Source of the DNA: Chloroflexota bacterium
GTDB taxonomy: Bacteria; Chloroflexota; Limnocylindria; Limnocylindrales; CSP1-4
NCBI GenBank assembly: GCA_025358525.1
Contig: JANYJI010000065.1
Coordinates: 1-33,012 of the forward strand
DNA length: 33,012 nucleotides
Direction: 5' to 3'
This document shows, piece by piece, positions 11,820 through 21,189 of this stretch. Made by a program: the position numbers and the translations under genes. Every line of letters starts with the position of its first letter. Within the stretch, counting starts at the first letter, position 1. The notes beneath the pieces are model-generated. The model was not told the origin of the DNA. It was given only the letters and a program-made list of their open reading frames with translations, and did not search any database.

Positions 11820-13037
11820 CTATCGCCGGTCGAGGCCGCGGCCCTTCTCGAAGACGATCTGAAGGACCTGACACGTGCCCGTCCTAAAGCCCGCCTCGCT
11901 GATGGCTAGGTAGTAATCCCACGTGCGCATGAACCGCTCGTCGAAGCCCATCGCCCGGACTGCGGCCGCCTGCGTAAGAAAACGCGTCCGCCAGAGACTG
12001 AGCGTGCGCGCGTAGTCGAGGGCGACGTCCGTGACGCGCGTGACCAGCAGTTGCGTGCCGTGCGTCGAGCGTTCGATGACGGCCAGAGACGGCAGCAGGC
12101 CGCCCGGGAAGATATAGCGCTGGATCCAATTGACGCCGCGGCGCTGCGGCTCGTAGGCCACGTCCGGGTAAGTGATCGACTGCAGACTCAGCCGTCCGCC
12201 CGGAGCCAACCCCCCCTCGCAGACCTCGAAGAAGGTTCCGAAGAATTCGGCGCCGACGGCCTCAAGCATCTCGATCGAGACGATCGCGTCGTAGGTGCCG
12301 GCGACCTCCCGATAATCGAGAAGCTGGACGTCGACGAGGCGATCGAGGCCGGCCGACCGAATGCGCTCGCGGGCAAGCTCCGCCTGGGACGGCGAAATCG
12401 TGATCGAGGTCACGCGACAGCCGATCTCGGCGGCGGCGTACATGGCGAAACCACCCCAGCCGGTGCCGATCTCAAGGACGTGCTGGCCCTTCGTCAGGCC
12501 AGCGCCCTCGGCGATGAGCCGGTATTTGTTGCGCTGGGCGTCGGCCAAGGTTTGGTCCGGCGATTCGAACACGGCCGAGGAGTACGTCATGGTTTCGTCA
12601 AGGAATAGGCGGTAGAAATCGTTGCCCAGGTCGTAGTGGGCGGCGATGTTCTTCTTCGCCTGCGAGCGCGTGTTCCGCCTGGCTCGATGGGCCAGCGTCC
12701 GACCGAATTGGGCCGGCAGCCGCCACCAGCCGGTAGCCAGCGCCAGCGAATGGCGGTTCAGGAGCCCCAGTTCGATCAGGCCGACGAGATCCGGGCTGGA
12801 CCACCAGCCCTCCATGTAGGCCTCGCCCATGCCGGTCTCGCCGTGGAGCAGAATCTTCACCAGGGCGAGCCGGTCGTGGATATGGATCTCGCCCCGGCGC
12901 TCCGCCGCGGGGTCGCCGAAGGTGCGCCGCGAGCCTGCCGGCAGGACCACGTCCAGGCGGCCAACTCGGATCCGCTTCGCGGCCGCAAAGCCGATGCGCA
13001 TGGCGAGCCGGGCCAGGACCGGATCGAAAACGCTCAT
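11820..13037 (-). CDS. Cyclopropane-fatty-acyl-phospholipid synthase-family SAM methyltransferase
   Basis: NIAAHYDLGNDFYRLFLDETMTYSSAVFESPDQTLADAQRNKYRLIAEGAGLTKGQHVLEIGTGWGGFAMYAA; SIEMLEAVG; YIFPGGLLPS. Confidence 0.93.
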   Translation of the reverse strand: MSVFDPVLARLAMRIGFAAAKRIRVGRLDVVLPAGSRRTFGDPAAERRGEIHIHDRLALVKILLHGETGMGEAYMEGWWSSPDLVGLIELGLLNRHSLALATGWWRLPAQFGRTLAHRARRNTRSQAKKNIAAHYDLGNDFYRLFLDETMTYSSAVFESPDQTLADAQRNKYRLIAEGAGLTKGQHVLEIGTGWGGFAMYAAAEIGCRVTSITISPSQAELARERIRSAGLDRLVDVQLLDYREVAGTYDAIVSIEMLEAVGAEFFGTFFEVCEGGLAPGGRLSLQSITYPDVAYEPQRRGVNWIQRYIFPGGLLPSLAVIERSTHGTQLLVTRVTDVALDYARTLSLWRTRFLTQAAAVRAMGFDERFMRTWDYYLAISEAGFRTGTCQVLQIVFEKGRGLDRR

Positions 13038-13810
13038 CGCGCCGCTCCATCACCCGCCCGGGGCGTGGCCTTGGCCGTGGCTTCGCCGCGACGGTGGAAG
13101 CGAGCGCCTCGCCGCCACAGCTGCAGGGCGTGCCAGTGGATCATGGCGATCGTCTTCAGCGTCACGAAGGGATAGCGGGTCAGCATCCTCGCAACCGTCC
13201 GGTCGGTCAGTTGAAGTCGGCGCAGGACCAGGCTGGTGTTGAGCAGAAGCTCGCCCTCCTCGCTCATGTCGAGCGCGATGCGCAGGCTGGCGGGGTTGTC
13301 CTTGACCCTGAGCACGTACCGCCCCTCCGCCCCGATGAAGGGCGAGACGTAGAACCCTTTGTCCATCGACGCGATGTAGGTGCCGCTGTCCCGCTCCGGC
13401 CGGAGCGTGTAGAGGTGACGCTCGCCGTGGGTGTTGTGGACCTCCACGATGACGATCTGGAGCTGACCCGAGCGATCCCGGCAGAGGTAGAAGCTGGCCG
13501 GGTTGAAGACGTAGCCGAAGACGCGCAGGTTGGTCACGAGCGTCAGGCGCCAGCCATCGGGATCGACACCCTGGTCGCGCAGGTGAGCCCGGATCTCCGC
13601 GGCAACGTCGGTCGCGGGCGAGTCGAGGTGGTCCCCGTCGCGAAAACTCAGGACGTTCGGTCGATTTCGACTAACCAGCCGAAGCTTCCCGACCACCTCG
13701 TCCAGCTCGCCCAGGTCGAGGGCGAAGTAGTAGACGTCGTGATCGAGTGTGTACACGAAAGGACGCGCCCGGCGATGCCGAACTTTCCCCTCTAGGAGGT
13801 GCGACCTCAT
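13034..13810 (-). CDS. DUF1365 domain-containing protein
   Basis: [36 protein letters not shown] ... [14 protein letters not shown] ... [14 protein letters not shown] ... KGFYVSPF; start trimmed to ATG after AGGAGG; ATGA overlap with upstream gene. Confidence 0.88.
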
Positions 13811-15108
13811 CCGGCGCCGACCTTCGACGCGGCCGCCCCAGCGCCTGTTCGGGCGGCCACCGCCGAAACCATTTCCGCTGCCAGGAAGCCAGAGCGGCAG
13901 CCATCCTCGTGGAAGCCGTAGCCGAGGTGGGCCCCGGCATAGAAGGTATTGCGCCACCCCTGGAGCGCGCCGATCGCCTGCTGCGCGGCCAGTGTCCGGA
14001 AGGTGTATCGGGGATGGCTCATCTCGCGCGCCACCATGACCTTCTCGGTGCGGACGCGGTCGCCGCAGTTCAGGGAGACGCAGTACTCCTCGGGCCCGCC
14101 GAGCGACTGCAGGCGATTCATGTAGTACGTCATCGTCAACTCTTCGCCGGGCTGGCCGCAGCTGGGCAGATCCACATTCCAGGAGGCCCAGGCGCGCGGC
14201 CTCTTTGGCAGAAGGGCTTTGTCAGTGTGGAGCACCACCTGGTTCCGCGAATAGTCGATGCCGCCAAGGGCGGCTCGCTCGGCCTGGTCTGAGTCCGCGA
14301 GGAACGTCAACGCATCGTCGCAATGGGTCGCGATGACGACTGCGTCGAAATACTCCGCAACCCCGTCCCGGGTAAGGACGGTAACGCCCTCGTCGTCGCG
14401 CGTGACGGCCACGACCGGGCTCCCGGACCGCACCCCATCGGCGGGCAGCGACGCGACGATCCGCTTGACGTACTCCATCGACCCGCCGCGGAGAACTCGC
14501 CATTGGATCCTATCGCGTAGACCGATAAGCCCGTGGTTGTCCAGGAAGTGGAGCAGGTAGTCGACCGGGAAATCGAGGATCTTGTCCGGCCCGGTGGACC
14601 ACACGGCGGCGGTCAGCGGGATGAGGAAGTGGCGCCGGAAGCCCCGCCCATAGTGCCGCTCGTCGAGATACTCACCCAGCGTCGTGTCGGAGCGGACGCC
14701 GCCATCCAGCCTGCGGCGAGCGTCGCGGTAGAACAGGACGATGTCGACGAGCATCCGCCAGTGCGACGGCCGAAGCAGGGCCGAGCGCTGGGCGAAGACG
14801 CCGCCGACACCCTTCAGGCTGAACTCGAGGCCGCATGAATGGCAAATGGAACTTAGCGACATCTCGCTCGGCTGCGTCTCAACGCCAAGCTCTCTGAGCA
14901 TGCGCACAAAGATCGGGTACGTCTTCTCGTTGTAGACGATGAACCCCGTGTCGACGGGGATGCGCCCACCGGGCGTCTCGACGGGGACGGTCTTGACGTG
15001 CCCGCCTACGACCGGCTCGCCTTCGAAGAGCCGGACCTGATGCTTGCGGTTCAGGTAGTAGGCCGCCGTCAGGCCGCTAACTCCCGCTCCAACCACAGCG
15101 ACCTTCAT
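13807..15108 (-). CDS. NAD(P)/FAD-dependent amine-oxidase-family protein
   Basis: [41 protein letters not shown] dinucleotide-binding motif; [16 protein letters not shown]-terminal [31 protein letters not shown]. Confidence 0.9.
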
Positions 15109-17387: not shown

Positions 17388-18617
17388 CTACTTGACGGGA
17401 TCGATGATGACCCATTTGCCGTACCACTCGGTCTTTCCGACCTGGCCGTCGACCGGGTCTGCATACGGAGAGTCGGTCTCCAGGTACGGGCTGAATCGAA
17501 CCCATTTCCCCCCAGAGCGCCAGTCCGCAGACGTGAGGAAGGTATCGCGATGAGCCTTGGAGTTAAGGGGGTCGGTGAGATAGACGCCCACGATGTTGAA
17601 TGCCGATGACCCGGTCCTTGGATCGTCGCCCGTCACTTTGTAGCCCGTGATGACCTGGGCGTGACCGCCCGACAGCGCGAGAATCCCCACGGGCTTGCGG
17701 TGCGTGGCCAGCGCCACCACCGCGGTCTTCGTGGCGGCATCGAACGATGAATAGGCCTCATCGCGATAGACGCCCGCATCGACGCTGCCCCAGCCGTAGA
17801 AGTTGAGGGCGTTACGCCAGCCATGCGGGTCCGTGCCGGCGGAGCTGATGAGCATGGTCATGTGCTCGCGCTCGAAGGCGAGGATTGACTCCTGCGTCGA
17901 GTAGGAAGTGGTGGCCTGCCAGACGAATGCGGAAGCCGACCCAGCGTAGGTGATCGTGTTCAGCATCGATTCGGTCGAGGCTGCCGTGCACGCCGTGTAG
18001 TCGGGGTCCTGGTAGCGATCTGCCGCTGCGTTGTAGAGGTCGAACGTCCACGTGGCCGCCACCGGTGAGGAGGTGGGAGCCTCGCTAGCCGTAGGGGCGG
18101 GCGCAGCGGTAGGAGCGGGAGTCGGAGCGGGAGTCGGAGCCGGTGTCGGGACTGCGATCGGCGTGGGAGACGGGGTCGGCTTCGCGGTGGGGGCGACCTT
18201 GGCCTTGGCGGGCGACAATATCGGCTTCGGTTTGAGAGCGGCCTTCGCGGGCAACGATGTCGGCTGCAACGCTGGGGCTGCGGGCGCCGATGGGGGCGAC
18301 ATGACTTCCGTCGGCGCCGGGGACGCAGGCAGACCCGTTGCTGCCGCCGCTAGCAACAACACGGAGTTGGCAGCGTCCGCCTCAGCAAGCCCCAAAGCGG
18401 CATCGGCGCCGCCAAGGAGCCTTTCGGGGGCGTAATTGTGCGTCTCCGTCACGACGACCACCGCCGACGTGGGAGAGACGGCCTGGGTCCGAGGGATCGC
18501 CACACTCACCGCCGACAGAGCGACAGCCGCCGGAAGCAGAACGTCAAGAGCGAAGGACGCCGGACGGAAAGTCAATATTGGGTATCCCCTCTGAGTCGAG
18601 GGCCTCTCGGCCGCCAC
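17388..18617 (-). CDS. Secreted/anchored protein: hydrophobic N-terminus, Pro/Ala-rich linker, C-terminal C39-like (papain-fold) domain
   Basis: LDVLLPAAVALSAVSVAIP; PTPSPTPIAVPTPAPTPAPTPAPTAAPAP; DLYNAAADRYQDPDYTACTAASTESMLN...GTDPHGWRNALNFYGWG...KPVGILALSGGHAQVITGYK...LTDPL. Confidence 0.78.
   Translation of the reverse strand: MAAERPSTQRGYPILTFRPASFALDVLLPAAVALSAVSVAIPRTQAVSPTSAVVVVTETHNYAPERLLGGADAALGLAEADAANSVLLLAAAATGLPASPAPTEVMSPPSAPAAPALQPTSLPAKAALKPKPILSPAKAKVAPTAKPTPSPTPIAVPTPAPTPAPTPAPTAAPAPTASEAPTSSPVAATWTFDLYNAAADRYQDPDYTACTAASTESMLNTITYAGSASAFVWQATTSYSTQESILAFEREHMTMLISSAGTDPHGWRNALNFYGWGSVDAGVYRDEAYSSFDAATKTAVVALATHRKPVGILALSGGHAQVITGYKVTGDDPRTGSSAFNIVGVYLTDPLNSKAHRDTFLTSADWRSGGKWVRFSPYLETDSPYADPVDGQVGKTEWYGKWVIIDPVK
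18112..18147 (-). repeat. 12-bp tandem repeat GGAGCGGGAGTC (three units) encoding a (PTPA)n linker
   Basis: 18112-18123, 18124-18135, then degenerate 18136-18147. Confidence 0.85.
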
Positions 18618-18810: not shown

Positions 18811-21189
18811 ATGACTAAGATGGCCGGACCCAATGTCCCACCTACCGCACGGAGGAATCGCGGCTTGCCCTGGTCGGACGAGACGCCCCGAGGACGACGG
18901 CTGACCCGCCTCAGCGCGGCCGAGACGGCCTTGTACCAGGACGACGCTGACCTGGAGGCCGGCGGCCCCGTGCATCTAGTTAAGGGCCTCGCTCAGAAAG
19001 CCATACCCAGGGGCGCGGTGATCCTGGGGTTCCTGTTCGTGCTGAACGCGGGCATGGCCGTCCTCCGGGACAAGGTTCTCGCCCACACCTTTGGCGCGGG
19101 CCCCGAACTCGATGCCTTCTTCACCGCCCTCTTCCTGCCCCAGCTAGTCCTGGAATTCCTGGTTGTTGGCGGGGTCGTGGGGCCATTCCTTCCGATCTTC
19201 GTGGGCCTGAAGGGCGAGGCGGAGGCAACGGCCCGGGACTTTGCTCGCACCATCCTTACCGGATCGATGATTGTCATGGCCGCGGCCATGGCCCTCGTCG
19301 TCATCTTCGCCCCACAGACCGCCTCGTTTGTGGCGCCCGGCTACGAGGGCAGCCAGCGCGAGCTGTACATCGGGCTGCTCCGGGTGATGGCCCTCGGCCA
19401 GATCGTCTTTGCGGCCTCGTTCGTGTTGGGCGAGGTACTCGTGGCGGAGCGGCGCTTCCTGTCCTACGGCCTGGGTGACTTCGCCTATAACGCCGGCATC
19501 GTGGCCGGAGCGTTGCTGCTCACGGGCGCGTTCGGCATCTATGGGGCGGCCATCGGTTTCCTCCTCGGTGCGCTGGGCCACCTGGGCATCCGCCTCGTCG
19601 GCATCTACGGGACCAGCTTCCGCCCCCAGCTGTCGTTGTCGCTCAGGACGAAGGGTTTGGGCGAGTTCGTTCGACTGTCGCTGCCCAAGATGATCAGCCA
19701 ACCGATGGGCACGTTGATGCTGATCTACTTCGGCTCGCTGGCATCGACTCTCGCCCCCGGCTCGGCCACCTCGTTCAACTTCGCCCGCAACTTCCAGAGC
19801 GTCGGCGAGAGTGTGGTCGGGCTGGCCTTCGCAACAGCAGCCTTCCCTGCCCTCTCCGCGGCGGCCGCCGCGGGCGACAAACGGGTCTTTAGGCGAGTTT
19901 TCAGGACAAATCTGGCCACGATCGCGTTCTTCTCGACCTGCGCCGGTATCGGCCTGCTCCTGTTCGGCGGGCTGGCCATCAGGATCCTGTTGAGCGGCGG
20001 CGCCTTCGACGAGACCGACGTCGCCCGGACCACCATGATCCTGATGATCCTGGCCATATCGATCCCCTTCGAGAGCCTTGTTGAACTCTTCGCCCGGGCA
20101 ATTTTCGCCACGCACAACACCGTCGAACCGACGGTCGCAGCGGCGACTGGGTTCCTAGCGGGAGTGGGCACGACCATGGCCCTCTCGTCGCCCGCAGGGC
20201 TGGCCGCCATACCGATCGGCTATGTGGCCTGCCGGGTTGCGCAGCTGACCGTCCTCGCGTTCTTCCTGCAGCCGCGGATGGCCCGCATGGGTGGCACGTC
20301 GCGCTGGTCGCAGGCACTCGTTCGCAATCGTTGGGGCGGCGTCCGGGGCGCCAATCGCCGAGCCATGCCCACCGGCCAACTCGTCCTGCTGGCGGTCCTG
20401 ATGGCGGCCCTCACCGGCGGCACGCTCTTCGCGGCGGCACAGGCGCTTAGCCACTCCTCCATCGGTGGCGAGCCGAAGACGACTCCATGGGTCCGTACCA
20501 ACGGCACCCGCGAGCCCGTCCTCACACCCCCGCCGGCGACCCCATCGGTTGTCCCCTCGGCATCTGGTCCGGTCTGGAGCGCGACGCCCTCCGGCACCCC
20601 CGGCATCTTCGTGATGGACCTCTATCGCGAAGGCGATTTCGTTAGCGAGTCAACGGACAAATGGTGCATTGCCGCGGCAATGCAGACGTCCATGAACATG
20701 ATGAGCGTCAGCCCCGACACCTCCCGTGACACCCAGGCCAAGCTCTTCGATCTGGCGGTCTCCATCGCCGGCTTGCAAGGCGGCGGCACTGACCCTGACG
20801 GATGGGCTGGAGGCCTCTCATCGCTTGGCTACGGCCGCTACTCGGTCGGCGCGAATGTAAGCATGGTCGCAGCGCTCCACACCGTGGCCAAGCAGATTCG
20901 CATCACCGAGCGGCCCGCCGGCCTCGTCGTCTGGAGGGGCTGGCATTCCTGGGTGGTGTCGGGCTTCACGGCCACGGCCGATCCCGCCCTCACGGACAAG
21001 TTCACGGTCCTTTCGCTGCGGATCGAGGACGTCTGGTATCCGCGGGTCTCGCACCTCTGGCCCAAGTCACGCGCGCCCGACGCGGACGTTGCAGTCAGCG
21101 CGCTGGCCCCTGACTACAAGCCCTGGCTGCAATCGGGCACGTGGCCCGGCCGCGACGGCAGGTATGTCTACGTTATCCCGGAGCTCTAG
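18811..21189 (+). CDS. MurJ/MviN-family lipid II flippase fused to an additional TM helix and a C-terminal C39-like domain
   Basis: Single uninterrupted ORF (18658..21189; ATG 18811 preferred): FVLNAGMAVLRDKVLAHTFGAGPELDAFFTALFLPQLVLEFLVVGGVVGPFLPIF is MurJ-like; extra TM TGQLVLLAVLMAALTGGTLFAAAQAL; C-terminus MDLYREGDFVSESTDKWCIAAAMQTSMNMM...GTDPDGWAGGLSSLGYGRY...RPAGLVVWRGWHSWVVSGF...IEDVWYPR. Confidence 0.87.
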   Translation: MTKMAGPNVPPTARRNRGLPWSDETPRGRRLTRLSAAETALYQDDADLEAGGPVHLVKGLAQKAIPRGAVILGFLFVLNAGMAVLRDKVLAHTFGAGPELDAFFTALFLPQLVLEFLVVGGVVGPFLPIFVGLKGEAEATARDFARTILTGSMIVMAAAMALVVIFAPQTASFVAPGYEGSQRELYIGLLRVMALGQIVFAASFVLGEVLVAERRFLSYGLGDFAYNAGIVAGALLLTGAFGIYGAAIGFLLGALGHLGIRLVGIYGTSFRPQLSLSLRTKGLGEFVRLSLPKMISQPMGTLMLIYFGSLASTLAPGSATSFNFARNFQSVGESVVGLAFATAAFPALSAAAAAGDKRVFRRVFRTNLATIAFFSTCAGIGLLLFGGLAIRILLSGGAFDETDVARTTMILMILAISIPFESLVELFARAIFATHNTVEPTVAAATGFLAGVGTTMALSSPAGLAAIPIGYVACRVAQLTVLAFFLQPRMARMGGTSRWSQALVRNRWGGVRGANRRAMPTGQLVLLAVLMAALTGGTLFAAAQALSHSSIGGEPKTTPWVRTNGTREPVLTPPPATPSVVPSASGPVWSATPSGTPGIFVMDLYREGDFVSESTDKWCIAAAMQTSMNMMSVSPDTSRDTQAKLFDLAVSIAGLQGGGTDPDGWAGGLSSLGYGRYSVGANVSMVAALHTVAKQIRITERPAGLVVWRGWHSWVVSGFTATADPALTDKFTVLSLRIEDVWYPRVSHLWPKSRAPDADVAVSALAPDYKPWLQSGTWPGRDGRYVYVIPEL

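Follow-up and report, generated by a model that had tools for sequence, protein, structure and literature searches.

Flippases for lipid-linked precursors have usually been studied as stand-alone transporters. The C39 domains of PCAT and ComA are cytoplasmic, are carried on ABC exporters and cut double-glycine leaders. The lipid II flippase MurJ/MviN (PF03023, TIGR01695; PDB 5T77, 6NC6-9, 7WAW) has been examined in T. africanus, where Arg24 and Arg255 are essential and Asp39 has been described as essential (PMC6465408). The nearest architectural precedent for the gene described here is the mycobacterial MviN/MurJ, in which a MurJ-family core is followed by extra C-terminal domains, a pseudokinase and a domain of the carbohydrate-binding type, both regulatory and non-catalytic (PMC12599244).

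The window (the whole stretch of DNA that was analysed, 33,012 nt) carries a gene in which a MurJ-family paralogue is joined to a C39-like domain. The encoded protein shares the MurJ fold, is homologous to MurJ over the first 12 transmembrane helices (TM), and keeps the essential Asp39 and, in the window copy, Arg24. Unlike MurJ, it is without the canonical TM13-14 and Arg18 and falls below the MurJ equivalog cut-off; it accompanies a canonical MurJ as an additional copy and is linked to a C39-like domain. It also differs from mycobacterial MviN, as the additional domain is of the papain fold, has an intact candidate catalytic set and is predicted to lie outside. This domain resembles Peptidase_C39_2 (PF13529) and Peptidase_C39 (ComA, PCAT1) in its papain fold, its Q/E-x5-C-x-P-A motif and its His and Asp residues, and has a TM-score of 0.70 (by target length) with the C39 domain of ComA. 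In contrast to PCAT and ComA, however, the C39-like domain is predicted to be outward-facing and is fused to a MOP flippase. There is also a likeness to the phytochelatin-synthase-like transpeptidase Alr0975 (PDB 2BU3, 6TH5; TM-score about 0.5, with a weak motif match around the Cys), but that enzyme acts on glutathione and has no membrane transporter. Full-text literature searches found no described MurJ-C39 fusion, in agreement with what the preliminary description had supposed. Both folds are known; what is new is the domain architecture that combines them and the conserved partnership of the two genes.

Architecture and membrane topology of the fused gene

The open frame at nt 18811-21189 (+ strand) starts with ATG and encodes 792 aa. 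Its parts, as first read, were a MurJ core, an extra helix, a Pro-rich linker and a C-terminal domain in a single frame, and all could be placed in that order (Table 1). A full-length AlphaFold2 (AF2) model built with 45 homologues (mean pLDDT 83) returned 12 core TM, a short Arg-rich loop, a TM at residues 521-547 and, after a disordered Pro-rich linker, a globular C-terminal domain. Pairwise dN/dS ranged from 0.09 to 0.31 in the MurJ core as well as in the C39-like half, and both are under purifying selection. An assembly artefact or a chance ORF is ruled out by these values and by the 24 full-length homologues from as many genomes, all without internal stops; the fusion is genuine and conserved. 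Within the cytoplasmic N-terminal region, residues 16-42 (nt 18856-18936) contain a motif, LPWxxxTxxxRxLxRxGAAxAALY, that is found in most fusions of the genus and is not present in canonical MurJ. It is a possible partner-binding site.

The loops predicted to be inside hold nearly all Lys and Arg residues, and none are found in the core loops predicted to be outside. This positive-inside pattern places the N-terminus in and the C-terminal domain out rather than in the cytoplasm, so that the C39-like domain is predicted to be extracytoplasmic, facing outward. The preliminary description had proposed 14 TM followed by one extra helix and an outside location. The extra helix and the location stand; the count does not, as the core has 12 TM and the extra helix is thus TM13, but 12 plus one has the same parity as 14 plus one and leaves the location unchanged. 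Related C39-like proteins that are not fused, either stand-alone or encoded by convergent neighbours of unfused MurJ paralogues (see below), each consist of one anchor TM, a Pro-rich linker and a C39-like domain. This is the layout of the C-terminal third of the fusion, and the single anchor and linker would place all of them on the same outer side. The TM-linker region of related members can be aligned with that of stand-alone proteins (L069 against L056, 41% over 111 aa).

Table 1. Features of the fused gene and its divergent neighbour in the window
Feature	Position (nt)	Strand	Basis or remark
C39-like protein, 409 aa, N-terminal hydrophobic segment, very long Pro/Thr/Ala linker	17388..18617	-	divergent neighbour
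Fused gene: MurJ-family paralogue, TM13, Pro-rich linker, C39-like domain	18811..21189	+	792 aa, open frame
Cytoplasmic N-terminal region, residues 1-59	18811..18987	+	alignments; low AF2 confidence
12-TM MurJ/MOP core, residues 60-492	18988..20286	+	PF03023; PDB MurJ by sequence and fold; modelled helices
Ala80, at the MurJ Arg18 position	19048..19050	+	alignment to T. africanus MurJ and canonical MurJs
Arg86, at the essential MurJ Arg24 position	19066..19068	+	alignment; kept in window copy
Asp101, at the essential MurJ Asp39 position	19111..19113	+	alignment
Arg-rich cytoplasmic loop, residues 493-520, 6 K/R, 0 D/E	20287..20370	+	residue charges
TM13, residues 521-547	20371..20451	+	AF2 model and charge topology; resembles membrane anchor of stand-alone C39-like proteins
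Pro/Thr/Ser-rich extracytoplasmic linker	20452..20601	+	pLDDT about 40-60
C39-like papain-fold domain, residues 598-792	20602..21186	+	AF2, Foldseek, Peptidase_C39_2 matches of homologues
Glu613, papain oxyanion-Gln position, 6 residues before Cys	20647..20649	+	residue conservation
Cys619, candidate nucleophile, N-terminus of first helix	20665..20667	+	conservation; AF2 helix starts at Cys
His712, candidate general base	20944..20946	+	conservation
Asp740, candidate third catalytic residue	21028..21030	+	conservation

Candidate functional residues of the MurJ-like core and the C39-like domain

Membership of the core in the MurJ family is clear from Pfam MurJ (PF03023; residues 90-491, E = 1.3e-50, 172.8 bits against a cut-off of 27.4) and from a match between the window protein and PDB MurJ sequence (E = 2e-15). 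MurJ structures ranked first in a Foldseek search with the full model, and WzxE, the lipid III flippase, also gave a good fit. The score against the NCBIfam MurJ equivalog TIGR01695 was lower than its cut-off (188 vs 235.55 bits), and where MurJ has 14 TM there are 12 core TM and one anchor. The fused core stops where the canonical TM13-14 would start, and the unfused orthologues end after TM12. Among the cavity residues, the position of Arg18 is never occupied by Arg in this MurJ subfamily, fused or unfused. Arg24 is present in 10 of the 24 fusions and lost in the other 14 (A, E, N, Q or K instead), and is found in all unfused orthologues covering the position; Asp39 is invariant in every member of the paralogue that covers it. 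Arg255/270 is missing from the paralogue. Its loss was considered as a sign of lost flippase function and dropped, since the canonical MurJs of the lineage are also without Arg255 and the loss is therefore uninformative. A supposedly essential residue, Arg255, is thus not universal in MurJ. Eight canonical MurJs (L094, L100, L034, L035, L037, L096-L098) have no Arg at the Arg52 and Arg255/270 positions and keep Arg18, Arg24 and Asp39.

A canonical MurJ is encoded separately from the fusion in all 21 genomes of the genus (on C35 in the window's own genome), so the fusion is not the housekeeping lipid II flippase, and that identity was ruled out. MraY was likewise found in 21 of 21, and lipid-linked peptidoglycan precursors can thus be taken to exist in the genus. 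Lipid II export, the function given in the preliminary description, is not supported, given the separate canonical MurJ and the low equivalog score. Plain lipid II flipping is made less likely by the absence of Arg18 from every member and of Arg24 from 14 of the 24 fusions. Judged by these residues, the core may be a transporter whose cargo has changed; in some members of the derived genus it possibly serves as an anchor.

The C-terminal domain was modelled separately with 65 homologues and high confidence (pLDDT 95.1, pTM 0.91). Its best Foldseek neighbours in the PDB are all of the papain fold: CdiA-CT papain-like domains, UfSP2, Alr0975, the ComA C39 peptidase and staphopain. Taken alone, the window domain has no Pfam match (it scores below the PF13529 gathering threshold); 31 of the 65 homologues match Peptidase_C39_2 at E up to 1 (best 1.4e-6), and 19 match Peptidase_C70. 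The model, the structural neighbours and the Peptidase_C39_2 matches of the homologues bear out the C39-like, papain-type fold that had been proposed. The possible Cys-His-Asp arrangement noted earlier is also conserved: each of the 24 fusions and each of the 25 convergent partners has all three residues, and the His and Asp recur without exception across the 65 homologues. Their placement in the model is that of papain, with Cys619 capping the first helix, His712 starting a strand and Asp740 ending the next one. All 24 fusions have Glu at the oxyanion position, where nearly all relatives have either Gln or Glu; Glu in place of Gln may reduce classical protease activity. The domain belongs to the papain fold (clan CA), has an intact candidate catalytic set, and would be expected to perform thiol chemistry. 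A stand-alone homologue at L092:8129-8767 (- strand) has Ser for the catalytic Cys (TYSIAASM) and is a candidate inactive variant.

Distribution of the fusion and of its unfused orthologues

Full-length fusions were detected in 24 genomes belonging to five genera, along with one split copy. Nineteen of the 21 genomes of the window's genus carry a full-length fused ORF (48-70% identity), as do five genomes from four other genera of the same family. The split copy (L027) is in a 20th genome of the genus, G004, where the gene is broken into two ORFs near residue 473-525 by a frameshift that is either real or an assembly error. The lineage consists of uncultured Chloroflexota of soil and peat; its named records are 'Chloroflexi bacterium' MAGs, many of them labelled 'fen'. 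In the MurJ tree, the fusions form one clade (99/99 support) nested within unfused paralogues, a topology indicating that the fusion arose once.

Orthologues of the MurJ half without a fused domain were found in two families of the class, namely in eight genera of the family that has the fusions and in one further family. In all 25 cases with readable flanks, from two families, a C39-like gene lies directly downstream on the opposite strand, at spacings from an overlap of ~70 bp to a gap of about 410 bp; one small ORF intervenes at L138. In family f1, most loci share the order rarA, MurJ paralogue, C39, aminotransferase (agxt), serA, and much of the adjacency within this family could be inherited synteny. 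Loci without that context, among them L053, L075 and L135-L138 and including those of the second family, also keep the pair, so that it is seen in several gene contexts that are unrelated to one another. As convergent genes do not form an operon, the pairing does not imply that the two are expressed together. No C39-like gene was seen near the canonical MurJ loci, and a wider search of the phylum gave C39-like matches (E up to 1e-12) only in this class of Chloroflexota. The MurJ paralogue was likewise found only in the class, except for a 33%-identical protein in G485 that has no C39 neighbour. Among the readable loci, the paralogue is always tied to a C39-like domain, either by fusion or through a convergent neighbour.

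The two kinds of link involve different C39-like proteins. In the C39 tree, the convergent partners form one clade (100/100), and the fused domains belong to a second clade that also includes a few stand-alone proteins with an anchor. One genome, G092, carries both a convergent partner and a stand-alone protein of the fused type, so the two types are paralogues. The separate clades indicate that the neighbour was not simply absorbed and that the one fusion event brought in a different C39 paralogue as partner; the former convergent C39 neighbour was not found beside the fused genes. An origin of the fused domain by inversion of the convergent gene was considered and is disfavoured by the separate clades and by the presence of both types in G092. 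Apart from the pair, no clear common gene family was found in the flanks of fused and unfused loci, nor any envelope pathway, with the exception of one apparent sugar-nucleotide cluster beside the L067 fusion. This set (L067:4989-8423, G109), judged by eye and not by family search, reads as a nucleotidyltransferase, an epimerase/dehydratase, a methyltransferase and an RmlC-like protein.

Possible function and genomic surroundings

The flippase core and the C39-like enzyme very probably work together as one functional unit. The best overall explanation, which we would put at about an even chance, is a coupled MOP flippase and outer-face thiol enzyme acting on a lipid-linked envelope precursor. 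The 12-TM core would flip a precursor containing peptide, perhaps lipid II or a relative (this is the less certain part), and its cargo would differ from, or add to, that of the housekeeping MurJ. At the outer face, the substrate of the tethered enzyme would be the molecule as it emerges, or else a protein destined for attachment to that molecule, and the enzyme might, more speculatively, cleave or transfer a peptide, isopeptide or acyl bond. As some cores of the derived genus are without the phosphate-binding Arg24, the core in those proteins may serve another cargo or mainly provide an anchor. A more specific form, which is plausible but somewhat short of even, is an undescribed two-part envelope machine in which a thiol enzyme at the outer face, always present with a dedicated MurJ-type flippase, modifies the cargo of that flippase. 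The enzyme would have been replaced by a paralogue and turned from a neighbour into a tethered domain without loss of the link. The lasting connection of a MurJ-family protein to an extracytoplasmic thiol enzyme implies a coupling of flipping to processing. The fusion offers a natural single-chain system for learning which cargo the non-housekeeping MurJ paralogues transport and how it is passed on at the outer side, as well as a lead to the function of a C39-like family seen, at the sensitivity searched, only in this Chloroflexota class.

The same residue losses (Arg18 in all members, Arg24 in 14 of 24 fusions), and a canonical MurJ that is always separate, would also fit a core that no longer transports and serves as a multi-TM platform that brings a C39-like protease or lyase to the places where the envelope is made. 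We consider this unlikely, though worth keeping in view: Arg24 is kept in the window copy and in the covered unfused orthologues, Asp39 in every covering member, the strong purifying selection on the core exceeds the needs of a mere anchor, and one TM suffices for many stand-alone C39-like proteins. If transport is retained, the core could instead be a redundant lipid II flippase whose C39-like domain edits the stem peptide as lipid II emerges, as a thiol carboxypeptidase or endopeptidase or as a crosslinking enzyme. MurJ is indeed the best family by both sequence and fold, MraY is present, and the window copy has Arg24 and Asp39, but the score below the equivalog cut-off, the missing Arg18, the constant presence of a housekeeping MurJ and the lack of adjoining peptidoglycan genes make such an editor improbable.

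Sortases that act on lipid II provide a well-established precedent, and papain-fold relatives include the transpeptidase phytochelatin synthase. By analogy, the C39-like domain could work as a thiol transpeptidase in the manner of a sortase, linking surface proteins to a lipid-linked carrier flipped by the core. Ordinary sortase-fold genes are, however, present in 14 of the 21 genomes of the genus, so that such a ligase is not needed to fill a gap, and we think this role very doubtful. That the proximity has no functional meaning, being a chance fusion combined with inherited synteny, is hardly credible. The convergent orientation and the shared rarA/serA context of most unfused f1 loci are what it would predict, but the link holds at every one of the 25 unfused loci, which come from two families and some of which lack the f1 context, it was re-created by the fusion with a different C39 paralogue, and both halves are under purifying selection. 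A coupled flippase and outer-face thiol enzyme is the reading we prefer.

Together with the C139 paralogue, the divergent C39-like gene next to the fusion (Table 1) falls in a separate clade. Its adjacency to the fusion was not seen in other members of the genus, and it is not needed for the fusion finding. C39-like proteins with an anchor or signal and Pro-rich linkers are a multi-copy family in the class, and mostly are poorly detected by Pfam; the window's own genome (G000) has four C39-like copies (C36, C139 and C166 among the sites) and its relatives have more. Elsewhere in the window, nt 11820-15108 (- strand) specify a CMAS cyclopropane synthase, a DUF1365 protein and an FAD amine oxidoreductase; operons of this type, for fatty-acid modification, are known.
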